This document shows, piece after piece, positions 10,177 through 32,283 of a stretch of 48,963 nt of DNA. The notes below the pieces were generated by a model that was given only the letters and a program-made list of their open reading frames with translations, made no database searches and was not told where the DNA came from. Origin of the DNA: Thermoplasmatales archaeon (lineage in GTDB: Archaea > Thermoplasmatota > Thermoplasmata > Thermoplasmatales > Thermoplasmataceae); contig JACWAH010000014.1 in assembly GCA_014874365.1 (NCBI GenBank), forward strand, positions 1 through 48,963. The letters are read 5' to 3'. The number at the start of each line of letters is the position of its first letter. Position 1 is the stretch's first letter. Position numbers and translations under genes: made by a program.

Positions 10177-13100
10177 ATGACCGAATCTGACACGAGCAGT
10201 CTGCATAGACTGAAGACATTAATCACAAACAGTCCGGAAATAATGGCACTCGCCTTTCTTATGTTGTTGTATCTGTTTCTTGGCAACTACTTTGCATTTT
10301 ACCAGACTCTTTACTTGCCTGGAGTACCAACATCTGGAGGAAGTGACCCCTATTACAATTTCAGGGTAATCCAGTATATTATCACCGACAAGCACTTCCT
10401 GGTATACGATGCAGCTCTGAACTATCCTTTAGGAGCCGGAAACCCCAGGAATCCCTTCTTCCATGAATTGATAGTATTAGTTGCCACTATCTTTTCACCA
10501 ATATACGGTCAGATGAACGCTGCGCTAATAGCGTTCGAGGAATATGATGCGGTCTTTGGCGCATTGTTAATTATACCTGTATTTCTAATCGGCAACGAGA
10601 TCTTTGGAAAAAAAGCCGGACTCATAGGTGCGTTTCTCTACACGTTAATGCCAAGCAACCTTTCAGCAGGCATTCTGTCAGATGGCAGGAATCACACGCC
10701 CGAGTTGATATGGGCTTTCTTTACGATTTACTTCTTCCTCAAGGCCGTCTCGCTTGCCAGAAAAACAACCATAATCGATTCGTTGACACAGGTAACCAAA
10801 ATTCCAGGATCAATTATCCGATATTACAGGGAAAATAAGCTGAGTTCCATTTATGCGTTGCTGGCTGGGGCCTCCACTGGTGCATTGATGCTTTCTTGGC
10901 AGGGGTTTGCGTATATTGTTGCAATTATCCTGATTTATATCTTTGTGCAACTCATAGCAAATATTTTCATGAAGAAACCATCAGGGTATTTAGTCTTCCT
11001 CTCAACATTATATGTTTCTCTGGCTTTCTTCCTGGGAGCTTATTACTATATCTATATGCACGAGACATCACTTTGGTACGTTCCTCCTTTGCTTCTAAGC
11101 GTGGCGGTTCTGTTATTCGGGGTGTTTGTTGCTATTCTAAGGAACAGGCCCTGGATTATTATCATCCCTACTCTTATTTTGATTGTCCTTGCAATATTTG
11201 CCTATGCTTATACCTTTGACAAATCAATACTTAACATATTGTTAAGTGGGGATGGATATTTCATAAAGAACAGGGTTTATGATACAATTTCAGAAGCACA
11301 AGCCCCTCAACTGGGATCATACATCAGTGGCTTTGGCCCGGCCCAGTTTCTGTTGGGGATGAGCGGAATTGCATATGTTGTATACCTGTTCTTCAAGAAG
11401 CGAAGTGAATCGATTCTATTCCTGCTGGTTTTTGCGATAGTGTCAATATACATGAGCTTTGCAGCTGCCAGGTTCAACGTAACAGCAGCTCCTGCTTATG
11501 CAATACTAGGTGGAGTACTCTTAGTCTACTTCTGGGGAATTTTAAAGGAAGGAAAAGTAACTTCCTCGATCAGTCAAGATCAGAGCGGTAGAGTAAAAAG
11601 GCTGATGAAAGGAAATAAATCCTGGATGAGGACCGCATTTGTGCTTGTCCTGATAATAGTCCTTGTAATCCCGTCTGGATTCAGTTCCATAGCTGCCGCG
11701 GTACCTGCAAACGGAGCCTCGGAAATAAATCAGGCAATTTACAATGAGTTACCGTCTATACTCCAACCTGGTAATTTTTCTGCAGGCAACAGTCAATTTG
11801 TCGGAGGTACCGGCTTTGGAATAACAAATGATTCTACGCCCTTATCCAGTGCACTGAATTGGCTAGGCACCCAAGATACAAATCAATCGTTTAATCAGAG
11901 GCCAGGCTATGTGTCATGGTGGGACTACGGTTTCCAGGAACTCAGCCAGGGTAAGCATCCAACAGTAGCAGATGATTTCCAGAATGGGTATCAGGTTGGG
12001 GGTCAGGTTCTGCTGGCTCAGAACAACAGTCAAATTATCTCGCTTTTCATTGCGAGAATTCTGCAGGCTGAGTTTAAAGACAACGGTGGGAACCTTCCTT
12101 CGAACATAGTTTCTAACATGAATTTCTATCTTGGGAGCAAAATGACAACGCTTCTGGCGAACATATACTCCGATCCTCTCCAGTATGCATATCAAATTTA
12201 CAGGGACCCCGCGCTTTATGGTCAATATATCCAGGGAATATCTTCACAAAACGCATATTTTGCTTTGTATACAGGTATTCTAACATCGCATTACAGCACC
12301 GATGTGCTAGTAAATCTGTACCTTTATCTGACTCGAACAACTGGATTCAATATTCAGTATGTTGGGATAGACAACGGGCTTTTCCCATTTTCAGGAACCA
12401 ACCCGGGTATTTTCTATGCTCCAACTTACCTCACGGATCACGTTTCATACACGTATAACGGAGAAATCGTTCCTTACAGTTATTACAACATTGATTCAGT
12501 TACTGCTAACGCGACATATGCCCTTAACCAGACTCCAAGTGGTGCGGCAGTGACTGGATATGACATCTCTTATAATTCTGCGTTCTATAATTCCACTATT
12601 TACAGGTTCACGATAGGTTACCCACCCTCAGTGACAGGCAACACATCCGGAATCCCGGGGCTTACCTTTGGACAGACAAAGTACTTCATGATGCCGGCTT
12701 GGAACATGAGCAATTTCGAGGTTACCTATGCGGGGATACCTTGGAATCCTTATACTAACTTTTCTTCGCACCCGGATGCCTGGCAGATTATTCCGTTGCA
12801 GCAGGCTTACTATTATAAAGAAATAGGATACGGTACCTCAGAAATTTTTCCGCCCACTTACCAGCTAACAAACTCTCTTGATACTATAGTTTCCTACTAC
12901 CCAGGGGCCATCATAACTGGAAGAGTTACCCTACCAAATGGACTTCCTGTGCCCGGTGTTCACGTGACAATCCTGGATCAATATGGAATTCCTCATTCTG
13001 AAATTAATACCAACATCAACGGGTACTACAATATTACTGCCGTTCCAGGTAATGACACATTGGTGTTTTCAAACGGTGTTATGAATAAGCAGTTCCTTAT

Positions 13101-16100
13101 TGGTAACAACACACAATACTATAAGATACACGTCTCAAAGGACCAGGCGGAAAGAAATGCCGTTAACCTGAATACAACCACTGGCCTGCCTGATTATTAC
13201 ATAGTGCAAAACTACACTTTTCCTGTTTCTTCAGTGTCTGGAGTTGCGAACTTCGAATATATGTACAAACCATTCAACGCATCCAAGAAAATTCCCCAAA
13301 CCTTCACGACAAGAATATCCAGCGGTACCGTACAACTCGTCAACTATGCAACCGGCACGATTCTGAATGCCACAATAACAAACGGGATTTTTAAATTCCC
13401 AGATATCCCGCCAATGTTCTACGATGTAAATCTAATCGTTGACGGAGTCCTATACAAGAATGTGTCCAGCACTACTGTTGTGGCTAAAGCTACCTTGCAA
13501 GAAACGTTCAATGTATTCTTTGATGCTCTATTCGTTCATGTTGCTCCGATCCCAGGTTCCAACACTACCCATGTGTCAGGGGTAAGAGTAACGGCATTCA
13601 ACAATGTTACAAGCTACTCCAACTACACTAATTCAACGGGTGAAACCGTAATTTGGCTTAACCCTGGTTATTATAACGTTTCCGTAAACCAGACAGGTTC
13701 AATTGCCTCATCGTATCAACCGATTTCCTTTTTAAGCTATTCGGAAAACCAAACTCTGAATTTGACAGCTGAGCCAGGTTATGTATTAACCGGCACTTTA
13801 TCGAACAACTGGGATGGATCCCAGCTGTCGCTATATCCTAATGCGCTTGTCTCATCCCCAATTACAATTTATCCAACAGCCTCCGGCTCGTTTTCAGTTC
13901 TCGCTCCGGGAGGACTGTATACGCTCTATGCTTATCATGACAACAATTCATTTATTCAGACAATTTACCTTGATAAGAACACATCTTTAACGGTAACTCT
14001 AGAGCAATCAAGTGTGCTTACACTGTCTGCGGTGACACCATCACTTTCGTCTCTGAGCGGAAATTATTTGATTAAGGAGGGGGCTTCTATTTTGGAAGTG
14101 CCCTTCCAGTATGGTGCAAGCCGTAATGTTAGCCTTCCTGATGGTTATGTTACTGCTGAAGTTGACGGTTTAGTGGTTGGGCAAATTTATACAGGCGAAA
14201 AAAGTTTCGAATTCACCCATAGTCAGAATGCGAGCATACCAGTGGCTCAATATAAGTATATCGAAATCTATCCTTATAATTCCGAGATCGGCTCATCTTT
14301 CAATTCTAAAACTGCCATATACAATGGATTGCTGGAACTCTACTCGTCAGGTACCCTGATATGGTTCACTACTATTACTTCAGTCGGGGCTGCAAGAGTT
14401 TCCACTTTAAATCTTTCAATGAGCGATCTTAGCTATGTTATTCAGGCATATCCTTTCTCGGAGTACGTTAGCAATTTGGTGTCCGGAACCACAATATATG
14501 CGCCTCTTGCAACTACAACTGATACCCTGAATCTGGTTCTCCAGCACAATGGCGTCAACACAAATTATAATGGCACGCTTAACCTGATAGGGGTTAATAA
14601 CTACACGGTTCCAATTACGAACGGGCAGGGGACTGTCGCCGTGATTCCGGGAGTATACTCACTTGAACTTTCTTCTCAGTATGCCGCGTTAATACCGCAG
14701 ACGGGATTTGTGCTTGCGAAAAATACAACTGTCCCAAACACTTTGTACATCAATGCATCTGTTATTCTTTCGGTCACTGTCAGCACTGCTAAGGGAGAGT
14801 ACTTTTTCAATCAATATGGCAATAGCGTAAATGGAAGTACATTGACCCCTGGCAATTACACGATTTATGCGATTTCAGGAACCAATGCGAATATATCCTC
14901 AGTGTTTGTGAACTCTAATTTCACCTATAATCCTGGTTATTCTGCAGCAGGTTTGGTAACATTGACCAACAGTTATAACAGCTCCCTCGGGTCATACGAT
15001 CTCGAATACAAAGGGATGAAGTTTTCGTTGTCTTCCGGATCATATGAACTTCCTTATGGCCAATACCAGGCGACGGTTAACTACACTAAACAGACATCAG
15101 GCGGATTATATCATCTTGTGGGCACCGAAACATTTAATGTAACCGGCGGCCCTGCGACGATTGTAGTTCCTGCCTCTTTGCAGAAAATAATGGTCACTGT
15201 CAGCGGGAAGACTTTATCCTCAAAATATGCCCCATACAGCACAATAGAATTCTTTAATTCCACAGGGACGCTGGTTGCGGCAACAAATGCGAATGCTTCA
15301 GGTAACTTCAGCATTAGTTTGTCGCCGGCAACTTACGGGGTATATGTCTATAACAATGCATCCCAGGTTGCTAACGTAACCGTATTTTACCTGTCTTTGA
15401 CGAATACAACTTTGAACCCCAAACTTACGAGCGCGTACCAAGTTGTCTATGAAGTTACTCTTCAGTCTGTCGCACTGGCAAGACCCGTGAACATAAGCCA
15501 GGGGAATTTCCTGATGAAGGGTTATACTTCTAACAGTACACCCTCTAACGGGACAGTTCTCTTACCATCAGGAATATACAGATTTTCCTCTTCTTATTCC
15601 CTGGTGATGCCATTCGGAGCGCATAATGTCACGGTTTCCTATGTAGAAAATTATACGCTTAATATAAACGGAACCAGTTTCGTTGACATAATACTCCATA
15701 AAGTAGTACTTCCGGATTTCCATTTTAAAATACTTAGCTCCAGCGGCGGCCCAATTCAAAATGGCAGCTCAGAAAACTTTACTTTTGAGATAACCAATTT
15801 AGGAAATGTGGAGATGAATCTTACCCTGTCCACCGGTTATACACTCTGGAACATGACTTTCAACAACAGTGTCATCAAGGATCTTGAACCTTATGCTAAT
15901 GCAACAAGAACGGTAGAAGTGCAGGCTCCGTACAAATTCATTATGAGCGGTTTGAATACGATACCGATTTCATTTTCTTACAACTATACCGGTAGTCCTT
16001 ACAAGGCGAACCTGAATGTATCGATCATAAAGTATCTCAATCTTAACGTAACTCTTCCCACTTTTGCCATTCAGAATTCTACCCAGTACCTGTTTCCCTT

Positions 16101-16524
16101 CGTCTTGAATAACACTGGCAACAACCAGTTAAACGTAACTTTCACTACTGAATACCAGTATTTCAACGCTTTTGGATGGAACGCCTCATTCGTTTACGAG
16201 AACAAAGTTGCAGGTAAAGCTTCCATATTATTCAACCAGACAGCCACTGTGTATCTACAGCTTATACAGATATCTCCGAGCGCAAAAAGCATCTCAGACT
16301 TTTACGTAATCTTCCACTATTCCAATATCACTGAAAATTTAACTGTAAATAACCCGCATTATCCGGGAAGTTCGATAAACACAGGCTATCCAACGGGTCC
16401 AGGAATAATTTCCAATTATACCGGTGATCCAATAGTGCAGCTTTACATCGGAATAATAATAATTGCCATCGCAGTGGTAGCTGGCCTGGGAATCTCAGCA
16501 TACAGGGGGAGAAAGTCCAGATGA
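10177..16524 (+). CDS. aglB: AglB (STT3-family) oligosaccharyltransferase with very long extracellular C-terminus
   Basis: A 2115-residue protein; typical AglB is roughly 800-1000. The first ~470 residues are polytopic and include GSDPYYNFR (acidic residue 57, first external loop) and LSDGRNHTPE near residue 170. The STT3 signature WWDYG is at 581-585, on the soluble catalytic domain that recognises the N-x-S/T sequon. The enzyme transfers a glycan from a dolichol-type lipid to asparagine on the outer face of the membrane. From about residue 900 onward there are several beta-sandwich modules, including carboxypeptidase-regulatory-like repeats (ITGRVTLPNGLPVPGVHVTI), extremely rich in Asn, Ser, Thr and Tyr with many N-x-S/T sites, then a C-terminal membrane helix ending YRGRKSR. 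The next gene overlaps by 4 nt. Confidence 0.92.
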   Translation: MTESDTSSLHRLKTLITNSPEIMALAFLMLLYLFLGNYFAFYQTLYLPGVPTSGGSDPYYNFRVIQYIITDKHFLVYDAALNYPLGAGNPRNPFFHELIVLVATIFSPIYGQMNAALIAFEEYDAVFGALLIIPVFLIGNEIFGKKAGLIGAFLYTLMPSNLSAGILSDGRNHTPELIWAFFTIYFFLKAVSLARKTTIIDSLTQVTKIPGSIIRYYRENKLSSIYALLAGASTGALMLSWQGFAYIVAIILIYIFVQLIANIFMKKPSGYLVFLSTLYVSLAFFLGAYYYIYMHETSLWYVPPLLLSVAVLLFGVFVAILRNRPWIIIIPTLILIVLAIFAYAYTFDKSILNILLSGDGYFIKNRVYDTISEAQAPQLGSYISGFGPAQFLLGMSGIAYVVYLFFKKRSESILFLLVFAIVSIYMSFAAARFNVTAAPAYAILGGVLLVYFWGILKEGKVTSSISQDQSGRVKRLMKGNKSWMRTAFVLVLIIVLVIPSGFSSIAAAVPANGASEINQAIYNELPSILQPGNFSAGNSQFVGGTGFGITNDSTPLSSALNWLGTQDTNQSFNQRPGYVSWWDYGFQELSQGKHPTVADDFQNGYQVGGQVLLAQNNSQIISLFIARILQAEFKDNGGNLPSNIVSNMNFYLGSKMTTLLANIYSDPLQYAYQIYRDPALYGQYIQGISSQNAYFALYTGILTSHYSTDVLVNLYLYLTRTTGFNIQYVGIDNGLFPFSGTNPGIFYAPTYLTDHVSYTYNGEIVPYSYYNIDSVTANATYALNQTPSGAAVTGYDISYNSAFYNSTIYRFTIGYPPSVTGNTSGIPGLTFGQTKYFMMPAWNMSNFEVTYAGIPWNPYTNFSSHPDAWQIIPLQQAYYYKEIGYGTSEIFPPTYQLTNSLDTIVSYYPGAIITGRVTLPNGLPVPGVHVTILDQYGIPHSEINTNINGYYNITAVPGNDTLVFSNGVMNKQFLIGNNTQYYKIHVSKDQAERNAVNLNTTTGLPDYYIVQNYTFPVSSVSGVANFEYMYKPFNASKKIPQTFTTRISSGTVQLVNYATGTILNATITNGIFKFPDIPPMFYDVNLIVDGVLYKNVSSTTVVAKATLQETFNVFFDALFVHVAPIPGSNTTHVSGVRVTAFNNVTSYSNYTNSTGETVIWLNPGYYNVSVNQTGSIASSYQPISFLSYSENQTLNLTAEPGYVLTGTLSNNWDGSQLSLYPNALVSSPITIYPTASGSFSVLAPGGLYTLYAYHDNNSFIQTIYLDKNTSLTVTLEQSSVLTLSAVTPSLSSLSGNYLIKEGASILEVPFQYGASRNVSLPDGYVTAEVDGLVVGQIYTGEKSFEFTHSQNASIPVAQYKYIEIYPYNSEIGSSFNSKTAIYNGLLELYSSGTLIWFTTITSVGAARVSTLNLSMSDLSYVIQAYPFSEYVSNLVSGTTIYAPLATTTDTLNLVLQHNGVNTNYNGTLNLIGVNNYTVPITNGQGTVAVIPGVYSLELSSQYAALIPQTGFVLAKNTTVPNTLYINASVILSVTVSTAKGEYFFNQYGNSVNGSTLTPGNYTIYAISGTNANISSVFVNSNFTYNPGYSAAGLVTLTNSYNSSLGSYDLEYKGMKFSLSSGSYELPYGQYQATVNYTKQTSGGLYHLVGTETFNVTGGPATIVVPASLQKIMVTVSGKTLSSKYAPYSTIEFFNSTGTLVAATNANASGNFSISLSPATYGVYVYNNASQVANVTVFYLSLTNTTLNPKLTSAYQVVYEVTLQSVALARPVNISQGNFLMKGYTSNSTPSNGTVLLPSGIYRFSSSYSLVMPFGAHNVTVSYVENYTLNINGTSFVDIILHKVVLPDFHFKILSSSGGPIQNGSSENFTFEITNLGNVEMNLTLSTGYTLWNMTFNNSVIKDLEPYANATRTVEVQAPYKFIMSGLNTIPISFSYNYTGSPYKANLNVSIIKYLNLNVTLPTFAIQNSTQYLFPFVLNNTGNNQLNVTFTTEYQYFNAFGWNASFVYENKVAGKASILFNQTATVYLQLIQISPSAKSISDFYVIFHYSNITENLTVNNPHYPGSSINTGYPTGPGIISNYTGDPIVQLYIGIIIIAIAVVAGLGISAYRGRKSR

Positions 16525-28684: not shown

Positions 28685-28945
28685 ATGGGAGCAATGAAAA
28701 TATTCAGAGAGAAAGGAACCAAAGAATCAACCGGACACGTCCTCGGGCATATCACAGTGAAGAATCTCTTTAAATTCTTCGGACTTTTGTTGATTGTAAT
28801 CCCACTTTCTTTCTATCTGGGTTGGTCTATTGCATACGATACCTGGACAGATGTAGGCCTTTACTCTTTTGTAGCCCCAACAGTGGTTTTTGGCATTTTG
28901 ATAATCATGCTTGCTGACGAAAAATATAAAGAAAAATCAGCCTAG
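28685..28945 (+). CDS. Small two-helix membrane protein
   Basis: An 86-residue protein with a basic N-terminus and two hydrophobic helices (FKFFGLLLIVIPLSFYLGWSI and LYSFVAPTVVFGILIIMLA), ending in a charged tail DEKYKEKSA. ATG at 28685, with MKIF at 28694 as an alternative. The TATA-like ttaatatac lies at about 28643-28651. The 3' end overlaps the convergent VirB4-like ATPase gene by 9 nt. No family was recognised. Its size and topology resemble the small helper proteins of Ced systems, but the opposite strand argues against co-transcription. Confidence 0.65.
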   Translation: MGAMKIFREKGTKESTGHVLGHITVKNLFKFFGLLLIVIPLSFYLGWSIAYDTWTDVGLYSFVAPTVVFGILIIMLADEKYKEKSA

Positions 28946-30973
28946 AATACGAACTTCGTCTGTGGAAGCAATAACCCTGATTCTTCTCACGCAGTCTCCT
29001 GAGTAAATGCATTCCGAAAAAGCTGAATTCTTGCCGCCAGGCAGAAGAGAGACATCCGGGATATCAATATCGTCACCTATGAGTGAATTTATGGACGCGT
29101 TACCTGTTTCCGAGTTTCTAAAAACAAACAGGTGCCGGGAATTACCGAGAATTGACCGATTTAATGACCCTTTAAGAAAATCCTCAAGGTTCTGCGAAGC
29201 CAGTATCACCGATGTGTTATAATGCCTGGAATGCCTGACCAGGTTATCCAGCATCTCTCTACCCGTAACAGTTTTGAGCATTAAGTGTGCCTCGTCGATC
29301 AGGACAATTTTTTTCTCTTTGGGCATGCTGGTCATCCAATCCTGAAACACCGTCCTGAAATTGGATAACCTGGATTTAGCATCGTCACTTTTTAGATTTC
29401 TAAGGATTGTGATGTTTGCAGAAATAGCATTTTCTATGCCTCCTGTTTCCGATAGCTTATTACTGTGTGAGAGCTGATTTTCACCACCGCCAAAGGAACT
29501 TGAGCCATTTAACCCGACGAAACTGATTTTCAGATTACCCGCGTTGTCAATATTCCTGAATAATTCCTCTTCATATTCATTCAGAGGATCAAAAATAATT
29601 ATGCGGTTAACCATCTTCTTTTCAAGCATTCTCCGTACTATAAGCTTAATAAAGAATGATTTTCCGGATCCTGTCTGTCCCAGTACAGTCGCATTGTAGG
29701 ATTCACCAGAAAATATATCAAGAAAGATGGGTTTTGAATTTGCTACGTCAATACCTATCATTATCCCATTGAACTCTTCCAGGTTTTCCGGGATGTGAAT
29801 AAGATTGGCAGCGGATTCTGCATCAACCGGATATTCATGCGTTTCCTTGATCGATATTGAGCAACCGTGCCTGGACCGCCTGGAAATTCCGGTGGTGCTT
29901 AAACCGAGGGAAACCATGCTCCTCAGGATTGTGTCATCAGCACCTCTTAATTTTGCAGGGTGAGGTGAAAACGTTTCAATAATAACTTCATTTCCAAATA
30001 TGGGACTTCCTGCGTTCATGGCAGATATCAGGCGATCAGAGTCCTTCTTAAGAGAAGAAAGTTCGGAGATTTTTCCACTTCTGCTTGAATTGAGTTTGAT
30101 TCTAGCCCCGTATTCTGCAGTAGCCATCCTCAGAACTTTTCCAATCTGGTTTGTCTCTAATTTGGTTAAACTAGTTTTGATCCTGAAAGGAATGTTGAGG
30201 GAAGTCAGAAAAGCCCATAGATCGTTATCCACCTTTGTTAGGTTAAGAAATTTATGCGAGGTTGAAAATACCCTTCCCCGATTGGTAAAGTGTTTGTATT
30301 TCGGCCTGCCACGGGAATTCGCCCGTATTTCACCGCTTTCATGAGGGATGTTCATAACTAGGTCCTTAAGCTCTTCCGCCGCCAGTGGGGAAGAAACAAA
30401 CCCGGAGGGATGGATGGCAGAGTATAGAGAATCAACTCCACTCATAGTTCCATTGTTTCTAACCAGTATGTATGATCGGAAATATACCGTATTCCCGAGG
30501 ACAAACCTCTCAATACCTGATTTGTCATCAGTACTTTTAACGGGACTCGGTACAGCAGTCAGAATAAACATCGCGGTTCCATTAATCGATCTAAGGAGAG
30601 ATGTAATTCTCCCAAGCATCATTTCCTTTTCTTGTTTTGACTCAATACCCTTATTCTGCGAAAGGAGCCTGGCAATCTGAAATCTTGAATTTCCAATGGA
30701 AAATGAGGTATTGTCTGAACCCACGAATATATTGGTTATTACGTCGGAAGTTCCCCTCCCCTCATTAGAATAATGATCAAATTTCTTTCTTAGCAAGAAA
30801 AGAGCAAGCAACCCAAAATAACATACGGCAAAAATCAAGGAATAGAAATAACCCGCCTTAAACAGAAGGAAGGTTATCACTCCCCCCATCAGGGCCAGGG
30901 AGTAGTAAAGGTACTTCCGGTCTTCATGCAATCCTGCGGTAATGTTTGAAGGCAGCGGGTGTGAAGAAGTCAT
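28937..30973 (-). CDS. Membrane-anchored VirB4/HerA-type ATPase (CedB-like)
   Basis: A 678-residue protein. Two hydrophobic helices near the N-terminus (ITFLLFKAGYFYSLIFAVCYFGLLALFLL) are followed by a VirB4-like domain and a RecA-fold motor with Walker A GQTGSGKS near residues 431-438, FDPLNEYEEEL after it, and Walker B KIVLIDEAHLML near 554-565. The C-terminal motifs VRHSRHYNTSVILASQ and RHLFVFRNSE are typical of HerA/FtsK/VirB4 motors. Such ATPases drive DNA or protein across membranes. The ATG overlaps the stop of the polytopic protein gene by 4 nt. The likeliest known analogue is CedB of the crenarchaeal DNA importer; a conjugation or secretion motor is the alternative. Confidence 0.8.
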   Translation of the reverse strand: MTSSHPLPSNITAGLHEDRKYLYYSLALMGGVITFLLFKAGYFYSLIFAVCYFGLLALFLLRKKFDHYSNEGRGTSDVITNIFVGSDNTSFSIGNSRFQIARLLSQNKGIESKQEKEMMLGRITSLLRSINGTAMFILTAVPSPVKSTDDKSGIERFVLGNTVYFRSYILVRNNGTMSGVDSLYSAIHPSGFVSSPLAAEELKDLVMNIPHESGEIRANSRGRPKYKHFTNRGRVFSTSHKFLNLTKVDNDLWAFLTSLNIPFRIKTSLTKLETNQIGKVLRMATAEYGARIKLNSSRSGKISELSSLKKDSDRLISAMNAGSPIFGNEVIIETFSPHPAKLRGADDTILRSMVSLGLSTTGISRRSRHGCSISIKETHEYPVDAESAANLIHIPENLEEFNGIMIGIDVANSKPIFLDIFSGESYNATVLGQTGSGKSFFIKLIVRRMLEKKMVNRIIIFDPLNEYEEELFRNIDNAGNLKISFVGLNGSSSFGGGENQLSHSNKLSETGGIENAISANITILRNLKSDDAKSRLSNFRTVFQDWMTSMPKEKKIVLIDEAHLMLKTVTGREMLDNLVRHSRHYNTSVILASQNLEDFLKGSLNRSILGNSRHLFVFRNSETGNASINSLIGDDIDIPDVSLLPGGKNSAFSECIYSGDCVRRIRVIASTDEVRILG

Positions 30974-31977
30974 ACATGTTCACTGTAGGACTTCTGATAT
31001 GCTTCGTTCCAGTCGATAGCGTACGAGTTTGGTTGAGATCCGTAGTTTGAGTTAACTGTGTTGGGCATTCCAAGTCTATTAAGTTCAGCAGCCGTTGAAG
31101 TATTCCCGATATCGGGTATCCGGTCAGTGAGAATCCCTGGAATCGAAGTTCTTTCGAATATGCTCTCGAACATTATGACGCTGCTGAGGCTACCAACCAT
31201 GTTTCCAAAGATTCGCGCTCTCTCAACGAACAGAATTGGGATGCTCGAGCAGAGAAAGAGGGATCCAATCTGCACCATGGTATTTCCTTCTACGATGTAC
31301 ATTGGATATAGTGCCAGCAGCATGAATATGGGTAGGGCCGTAGACTCCACTACTGTTTTCCATAAAGTAATCGAGTATTTCTCCATATACGGGATTATAA
31401 TAAGAAGCGATGCGAACGGCAGTACAAGGTAGGAAAAAATAATAAGGGATGTCCGTACAGCCAGCACGACATATATAGAAATCATTGGAACATCATACCC
31501 GGCAATAAATAATAGCCTAACAAGACCGTTCCCTGAAAATAATCCGGATTGGGTGGTTTGGGGTATTAAGGTTGGCCAGTTAACTCCAGAGTTCCATATT
31601 GGGTTATAGATGTACACTTCTGCAGACAGTATTCCCTGAATTATCTCGATTGAAAATATGGACAATAGAATGGCAAAAATAGGCTTAAAAAGTTTATGGG
31701 TTGCCTGTTTTTCACCAACCGAAGAACTGTATATAAAAAACAACGCGAAAACGGCAAGAACAGCGCCAGTGAGCTCCGGCATTGTGCTATTCAGGAACCT
31801 TTCATATCCACCGAAAAAGTTTACACCTGGATTCAGGACCAGCAGGTAACTTTGAGCTGGATCAAATCCCTGTGTGAGTAGTACGTTCCATAATACTACC
31901 GCAGATGCCTGAGCAACCAGCAGTATTGCAGAGAAAGCCTGGGAAATTATTAGGTTAATTTCTCCTTCTAAACCCAA
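30970..31977 (-). CDS. Polytopic membrane protein, VirB6/CedA-like by context
   Basis: A 335-residue protein with about seven hydrophobic helices, including IISQAFSAILLVAQASAVVLW, ELTGAVLAVFALFFIYSS, LFKPIFAILLSIFSIEIIQGIL, LIIFSYLVLPFASLLIIIPY and ALPIFMLLALYPMYIVEG, followed by a hydrophilic C-terminal tail of about 60 residues. It lies between the two-helix small protein (4-nt gap) and the VirB4-like ATPase (4-nt overlap). Size, topology and position match the inner-membrane channel component VirB6/CedA. No sequence motif alone proves this. Confidence 0.65.
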   Translation of the reverse strand: MGLEGEINLIISQAFSAILLVAQASAVVLWNVLLTQGFDPAQSYLLVLNPGVNFFGGYERFLNSTMPELTGAVLAVFALFFIYSSSVGEKQATHKLFKPIFAILLSIFSIEIIQGILSAEVYIYNPIWNSGVNWPTLIPQTTQSGLFSGNGLVRLLFIAGYDVPMISIYVVLAVRTSLIIFSYLVLPFASLLIIIPYMEKYSITLWKTVVESTALPIFMLLALYPMYIVEGNTMVQIGSLFLCSSIPILFVERARIFGNMVGSLSSVIMFESIFERTSIPGILTDRIPDIGNTSTAAELNRLGMPNTVNSNYGSQPNSYAIDWNEAYQKSYSEHV

Positions 31978-31981
31978 CAGA

Positions 31982-32254
31982 TCACGTACCTGTGGCCACG
32001 TAGTACACTACAGCGTAAAGTGTACCAGTTATCGCCAATATGAATATGATTGTCCCAATAAATGCGTACTTGACGCGGACTTTTGCTTCCATTCTCTTTT
32101 TTTCATCTTCGCTGAAAAATCCGAAGGCTATTGGGAGCCATAATAAAGCGATTACAATCGCGGAAACGCCCAGTATAAGTGAAAAGAACCTGTTCACAAC
32201 ATCAGATACGCTAGAATAATATGCACTTTGTACCAAAAGTTCACTAATGTACAT
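31982..32254 (-). CDS. Small two-helix membrane protein, VirB2/CedA1 pilin-like by topology
   Basis: A 90-residue protein with two long hydrophobic helices (FFSLILGVSAIVIALLWLPI and YAFIGTIIFILAITGTLYAV) joined by a strongly charged loop (SEDEKKRMEAKVRVK). The helix-basic loop-helix layout is that of VirB2/TrbC pilins and of CedA1, the pilin of the archaeal DNA-import machinery. It is the first gene of the three-gene operon. ATG at 32254, with a TATA-like element about 26 nt upstream. The N-terminal segment (MYISELLVQSAYYSSVSDV) is not a classical signal peptide. Confidence 0.65.
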   Translation of the reverse strand: MYISELLVQSAYYSSVSDVVNRFFSLILGVSAIVIALLWLPIAFGFFSEDEKKRMEAKVRVKYAFIGTIIFILAITGTLYAVVYYVATGT

Positions 32255-32275: not shown

Positions 32276-32283
32276 TACTTAAA
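32276..32283 (-). promoter_or_regulatory. TATA box of the Ced/VirB-like operon
   Basis: The minus-strand sequence tttaagta is centred about 26 nt before the ATG at 32254, the spacing expected for a leaderless transcript covering 32254 to 28937. Confidence 0.55.

Follow-up and report, generated by a model that had tools for sequence, protein, structure and literature searches.

Architecture of the operon

The window analysed here, a stretch of 48,963 nucleotides that represents contig 8 of the 1.48 Mb genome of a Thermoplasmatales archaeon (GenBank assembly GCA_014874365.1, contig JACWAH010000014.1), carries a three-gene operon for which we propose a role in conjugation-type, or type IV, secretion. 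The products are a VirB2-like pilin, a VirB6-like polytopic membrane protein and a VirB4-type ATPase. All three genes lie on the minus strand, in the order pilin (32254-31982), polytopic protein (31977-30970) and ATPase (30973-28937). The first two are separated by 4 nucleotides and the last two overlap by 4; the polytopic-protein gene has a TTG start. Dozens of related genomes encode the same three products side by side, at 20-50% identity, so these are not chance open reading frames.

The predicted promoter is a TATA box, TTTAAG (32278-32283, minus strand), that starts 29 nucleotides before the pilin start codon. The four genomes of the window's genus all have it at exactly -29, and a TATA-like hexamer is found at exactly that position in 15 of 37 pilin genes or loci. 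Such placement leads us to read the transcript as leaderless. A first-pass annotation, made from the nucleotide sequence, had described one leaderless operon with 4-nucleotide spacing and overlap at this site; gene positions, strand and spacing all agree with that description, and the conserved hexamer supports its leaderless character.

The three proteins

The ATPase (678 residues; 28937-30973, minus strand) is a T4SS (type IV secretion system) motor of the VirB4 type, as opposed to a repair motor of the HerA-NurA kind. In the model its N-terminus has two membrane helices (residues 13-40 and 42-68). The Walker A motif GQTGSGKS (residues 432-439; 29657-29680, minus strand) is intact, with nearly all positions invariant in the alignment, and there is a Walker B motif, IVLIDE (residue 556). 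Folds were compared with the PDB by Foldseek. The top 14 matches to the ATPase model are all TrwK, the VirB4 protein of R388, with a best E value of 6.8e-20 and an alignment of 729 columns that includes the N-domain. The best HerA-NurA match has an E value of 5.9e-7, leaving VirB4 ahead by 13 orders of magnitude. A profile search of the PDB also places VirB4 first (4ag5, 3.4e-14).

In many relatives the ATPase is encoded by two genes, one for a protein of about 230 residues with the membrane helices and one for an ATPase of about 470 residues. The counterpart of the smaller protein here is the N-terminal part, residues 1-230 (30284-30973, minus strand), comprising the two membrane helices and the N-lobe: in an hhalign comparison with the fused set, the split-off proteins aligned to the window protein over its residues 3-208 (Prob 99.5, E 2.4e-23). 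At least seven changes between the split and fused states are required on the tree. Five loci of the I-plasma family (L054:12732-15409; L051, L052, L056 and L058) encode a second, HerA/CedB-like ATPase of 677-679 residues on the same strand after virB4, followed in most of them by a protein of about 215 residues.

The polytopic protein (335 residues; 30970-31977, minus strand) was modelled with AlphaFold from an alignment of 35 homologues (mean predicted local distance difference test score, pLDDT, 78.5). Six long helices are seen in the model, one fewer than the seven initially counted. Against 350,542 PDB chains, the top four matches are all R388 TrwI/VirB6 (probability 0.96-0.99, E 0.027-0.041), and further chains of the same R388 structures rank next. 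Pfam, NCBIfam and PDB profile searches returned no family match and the assignment is therefore based on fold, the level at which the VirB6 likeness proposed at first pass is upheld. The case that the modelled protein is of VirB6 type is good but not final.

The smallest product (90 residues; 31982-32254, minus strand; FFSEDEKKRMEAKVRVKYAFI) has two hydrophobic membrane helices with a charged hairpin between them. It matches the Pfam family PF18895, T4SS_pilin, at 8.3e-7, above the gathering score, as do 34 of the 35 pilin homologues of the family. The NCBIfam Mbov_0395 model, for a pilin-like conjugal transfer protein of a mycoplasma integrative and conjugative element, is matched at 9e-8, below its curated cut-off, and by 32 of the 35 homologues. 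Several more distant relatives also match PF18895, two of these with weak matches to TrbC/VirB2. A small negative control is provided by the neighbouring convergent gene (28685-28945), whose two-helix product fails PF18895; a small, hydrophobic protein is thus not rewarded merely for being so. These family matches place the protein among the T4SS pilins, as a conjugative two-helix pilin of the VirB2 type, as had been suggested. It is the most conserved component of the triad, and in some relatives the N-terminus resembles a signal peptide. A PDB profile search with the pilin gave chance membrane-helix matches only and returned no Ced or Ted pilin. The reported kinship between CedA1 and the N-terminus of CedA was examined by comparing pilin and VirB6 profiles, which gave no signal.

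Variations on the pilin are found in related genomes. Tandem arrays of four to five pilin-domain proteins, most with extra N-terminal regions, occur at two loci, L112:5426-12685 (genome G040) and L113 (genome G303), where they adjoin VirB6, VirB4 and a surface protein of about 744 residues with Ig domains in G040. The arrays resemble those of Patescibacteria. In one genome a secreted peptidase of the kumamolisin/subtilase type lies upstream of the pilin (L079:8846-11134).

A coupling-type ATPase elsewhere in the genome

Among unrelated genes on contig 21 (93665-95548; L124:7663-9549) is an unlinked ATPase of 628 residues, the sole other protein of the genome to match DUF87 above cut-off; no further HerA-type protein in this genome exceeds the cut-off. 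It matches TrwB_AAD_bind (4.7e-10) and TraG-D_C, both above curated scores, and SXT_TraD at 7.8e-12, below the curated cut-off. The best PDB match is TrwB (6e-4); PF02534 gave no match. The domain matches indicate a coupling-type ATPase of the VirD4 (type IV coupling protein) class. Of 61 family genomes, 49 carry such an ATPase. The first-pass annotation had noted no coupling protein nearby, which is correct for the locus but not for the genome, given this VirD4/TrwB-type protein on another contig. VirB4-, VirB6-, VirB2- and VirD4-type components are all represented, and the set would operate as a minimal, conjugation-type T4SS.

Distribution and inheritance

By the pilin model, 55 of the 57 family genomes that are at least 80% complete have the gene, in single copy; in the class as a whole the model detects it in 131 of 349 genomes. 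VirB6 and VirB4 adjoin the pilin in nearly all loci examined and the gene order is the same in most triads. Family members bearing the triad include relatives of Thermoplasma, Ferroplasma, Acidiplasma and Cuniculiplasma, with loci from Ferroplasma acidarmanus, Acidiplasma aeolicum, Thermoplasma sp., Thermogymnomonas acidicola, E-plasma and I-plasma. When VirB4 and VirB6 are placed together in one tree, each of the 14 listed groups with at least two entries forms a single clade, at 98-100% support; genus g13 pairs with that of E-plasma, and g18 (Acidiplasma) with g19.

The rest of the window is of a housekeeping nature, with genes for PheRS, S15, EMG1, ThiI, PurD, UroD, ferrochelatase, a class II (D/K/N-type) tRNA synthetase and ScpB, and no mobile-element gene (integrase, replication) was recognised in it. 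No relative of the pilin or the ATPase was found in viral contigs, and none of the pilin in plasmids; the plasmid matches of the ATPase are distant and mostly DUF87-type proteins. The near-universal presence, the monophyly of genera, the housekeeping neighbours and the empty searches of viral contigs together mean that the operon is a core chromosomal system, vertically inherited, and not a mobile element. The early suggestion of a domesticated chromosomal system outside the Crenarchaeota fits these observations well.

Comparison with known systems

The first-pass annotation had taken the three genes for the core set of the crenarchaeal Ced importer, an identification that the curated models do not sustain. 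The CedA model NF041796 gives no match at E<=1 in the genome or in any of the 35 homologues. The ATPase scores 40.1 bits with the CedB model NF041017 (cut-off 700) and 25.6 bits with the CedD model (cut-off 600), there is no CedB/CedD pair, and none of the 349 class genomes exceeds the CedB cut-off. By these models the set cannot be called Ced.

There are likenesses to Ced, which occurs in Sulfolobales and Desulfurococcales and comprises CedA, CedA1, CedB and CedD (PMC9905601, PMC11868833). Both have chromosomal VirB2-, VirB6- and VirB4-type parts, no mobile element, no relaxase identified (in this genome by a MOBP search) and an ATPase with membrane helices. The differences are that one VirB4 with a complete N-domain is present here in place of CedB and CedD, that a VirD4-like ATPase is encoded elsewhere in this genome, and that CedA has no recognisable sequence match. 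The N-terminal membrane part of VirB4 has repeatedly been separated from the ATPase, which invites comparison with the CedB/CedD division of labour. Going by its description, Ted of the Thermoproteales (TedA, TedB, TedC) is similar in having one VirB4, one VirB6 and one pilin on the chromosome, and the signal-peptide-like pilin N-terminus in some relatives here is a further resemblance. Ted belongs to another lineage, and its ParA-like, Rad50 and HerA-like flanking genes (PMC9905601) were not recognised beside the operon.

The T4SS of Patescibacteria, related to MPF-FATA, shares chromosomal VirB4, PF18895 pilins and, in some genomes, pilin arrays, and most of those systems have no relaxase (PMC12102498); it is found in another domain of life, in epibionts, and with additional MPF-FATA parts. 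TrwK/VirB4 and TrwI/VirB6 of the R388 conjugation machine are the best folds in the whole PDB for the two larger proteins, at about 10-16% identity, and here no relaxase was found in a MOBP search and there are no outer-membrane parts.

The annotation is partly known already. Golyshina and colleagues in 2016 named CSP5_1185-1189 of Cuniculiplasma divulgatum 'type IV secretion components' (PMC5155288). As far as it is described, with VirB4 (arCOG04034), a multipass protein (arCOG05369), small membrane proteins and a separate VirD4-family gene, this is very probably the same cluster. That account is a gene list, without pilin or VirB6-fold identity, conservation or a DNA-exchange role for the cluster. 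Our literature search, which covered few subscription journals, did not find the identification of pilin and pore, the fixed inheritance across the order, the splitting of VirB4 or the exchange hypothesis.

Proposed function and alternatives

What might such a system do? We consider it probable that the operon specifies the core components of a conjugation-type T4SS of the Thermoplasmatales, minimal and fixed in the chromosome, which would move cellular DNA between neighbouring cells. A mechanism can be drawn by analogy with T4SSs and with Ced and Ted (PMC9905601, PMC11868833). VirB2-like pilin subunits would reside in the single membrane and be drawn out into a thin pilus or junction, with the VirB6-like protein as a pore at its base. 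A membrane-anchored VirB4 hexamer would drive pilus assembly and the passage of DNA, and the unlinked VirD4/TrwB-type ATPase probably feeds DNA into the channel in those genera that keep it. With vertical inheritance and no mobile element, cellular DNA passed between neighbours for recombination would be the likeliest cargo. The import direction read at first pass is unsupported; export, or movement in both directions, is as compatible with the data.

Several observations weigh against this proposal. The VirB6 match is one of fold only and the overall superposition is loose, with a TM (template modelling) score of 0.28. No coupling-type ATPase turned up in those genomes of Ferroplasma, Acidiplasma and g19 that were searched, all of which have the triad, so it is not essential everywhere. 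The MOBP relaxase (PF03432), the one relaxase family covered by the search, is absent from the genome. In the Ced model HerA-NurA is proposed to make the single strands. NurA was not found in any of the four genomes of the window's genus (G000-G003), although most of the family has it; with HerA-NurA not found in the genus there is no obvious agent for this step, and the Ced model does not account for the DNA substrate here.

Could the cargo instead be protein? A domesticated T4SS that moves effectors, toxins or adhesins, as several bacterial T4SSs do, would have the same core parts; the MOBP search found no relaxase, and in some relatives the pilin lies next to a secreted peptidase or to large surface proteins with Ig domains. 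We judge this unlikely, as no effector-like gene is conserved with the operon from genus to genus and the coupling-type ATPase is closest to the conjugative TraD/TrwB families. An adhesive or biofilm pilus built by pilin and motor, with no cargo, would suit both the pilin's place as the most conserved component and the arrays in related genomes of pilin-domain proteins bearing extra outer domains. Against it stand the VirB6 pore and VirB4 motor, retained with the pilin in nearly all loci, and the coupling-type ATPase kept in most genera, and we regard it as quite improbable.

An integrated conjugative element or plasmid remnant is disfavoured, indeed very improbable. All the parts are typical of such elements and similar ATPases are carried by Sulfolobus conjugative plasmids, but the genes are near-universal, single copy and monophyletic by genus, the neighbours are housekeeping genes with no integrase or replication gene recognised, and the searches of viral contigs gave no match. 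The DUF87 match, to the central domain of HerA, might suggest an ordinary DNA-repair motor with unrelated membrane proteins alongside. We give this virtually no credence: the VirB4 N-domain and the gap in fold score lead us to reject it, NurA was not found in the genus, and pilin and VirB6 adjoin the ATPase in nearly all loci; on the modelled structure this reading is refuted. A plain HerA enzyme beside unrelated membrane proteins was the outcome against which the first-pass annotation had set its proposal, and a VirB4 motor, a T4SS pilin and a VirB6 fold were found instead.

To return to DNA exchange, high recombination has been reported in Ferroplasma populations (PMC2704941). The triad is a concrete, testable candidate for DNA exchange in these acid-loving archaea, and the operon offers a genetic target for the documented Ferroplasma recombination, with the caveat that no coupling-type ATPase was found in Ferroplasma. 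The authors of the Ced and Ted structures state that domesticated conjugation was, to their knowledge, unreported outside the Crenarchaeota (PMC9905601). That a pilin-pore-motor set is fixed in the Thermoplasmatales, where a coupling-type ATPase is also present, lends plausibility to an old origin of such machines in archaea or to their repeated capture. Besides Ced and Ted, archaea may have in this system a third conjugation machine that is chromosomal and passed on vertically, and a whole euryarchaeal order may use it as its ordinary means of exchanging DNA; this would explain the Ferroplasma recombination, and the machine would operate without HerA-NurA in at least one genus. We advance this larger claim tentatively, judging it about as apt to fail as to hold, if not slightly more so.

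Neighbouring genes

Of 41 loci, 25 have a thioesterase gene within the region around the operon, and where its position was mapped it lies upstream. The genes downstream are MsrA/MsrB in the window's own genus only, and the idea that these are downstream neighbours in all relatives was rejected. The convergent gene used above as a control (28685-28945, plus strand) encodes a two-helix membrane protein of 86 residues, a possible accessory; 24 of the 41 loci have a homologue next to the ATPase. Pfam gave no family above cut-off for this protein, which carries the motif FYLGWSIxYxTWxDxGLYSF. Elsewhere in the window (10177-16524, plus strand) is a gene for a 2115-residue protein with an STT3 oligosaccharyltransferase domain and a very long tail, in which there are CarboxypepD_reg and weak Big_6 matches.

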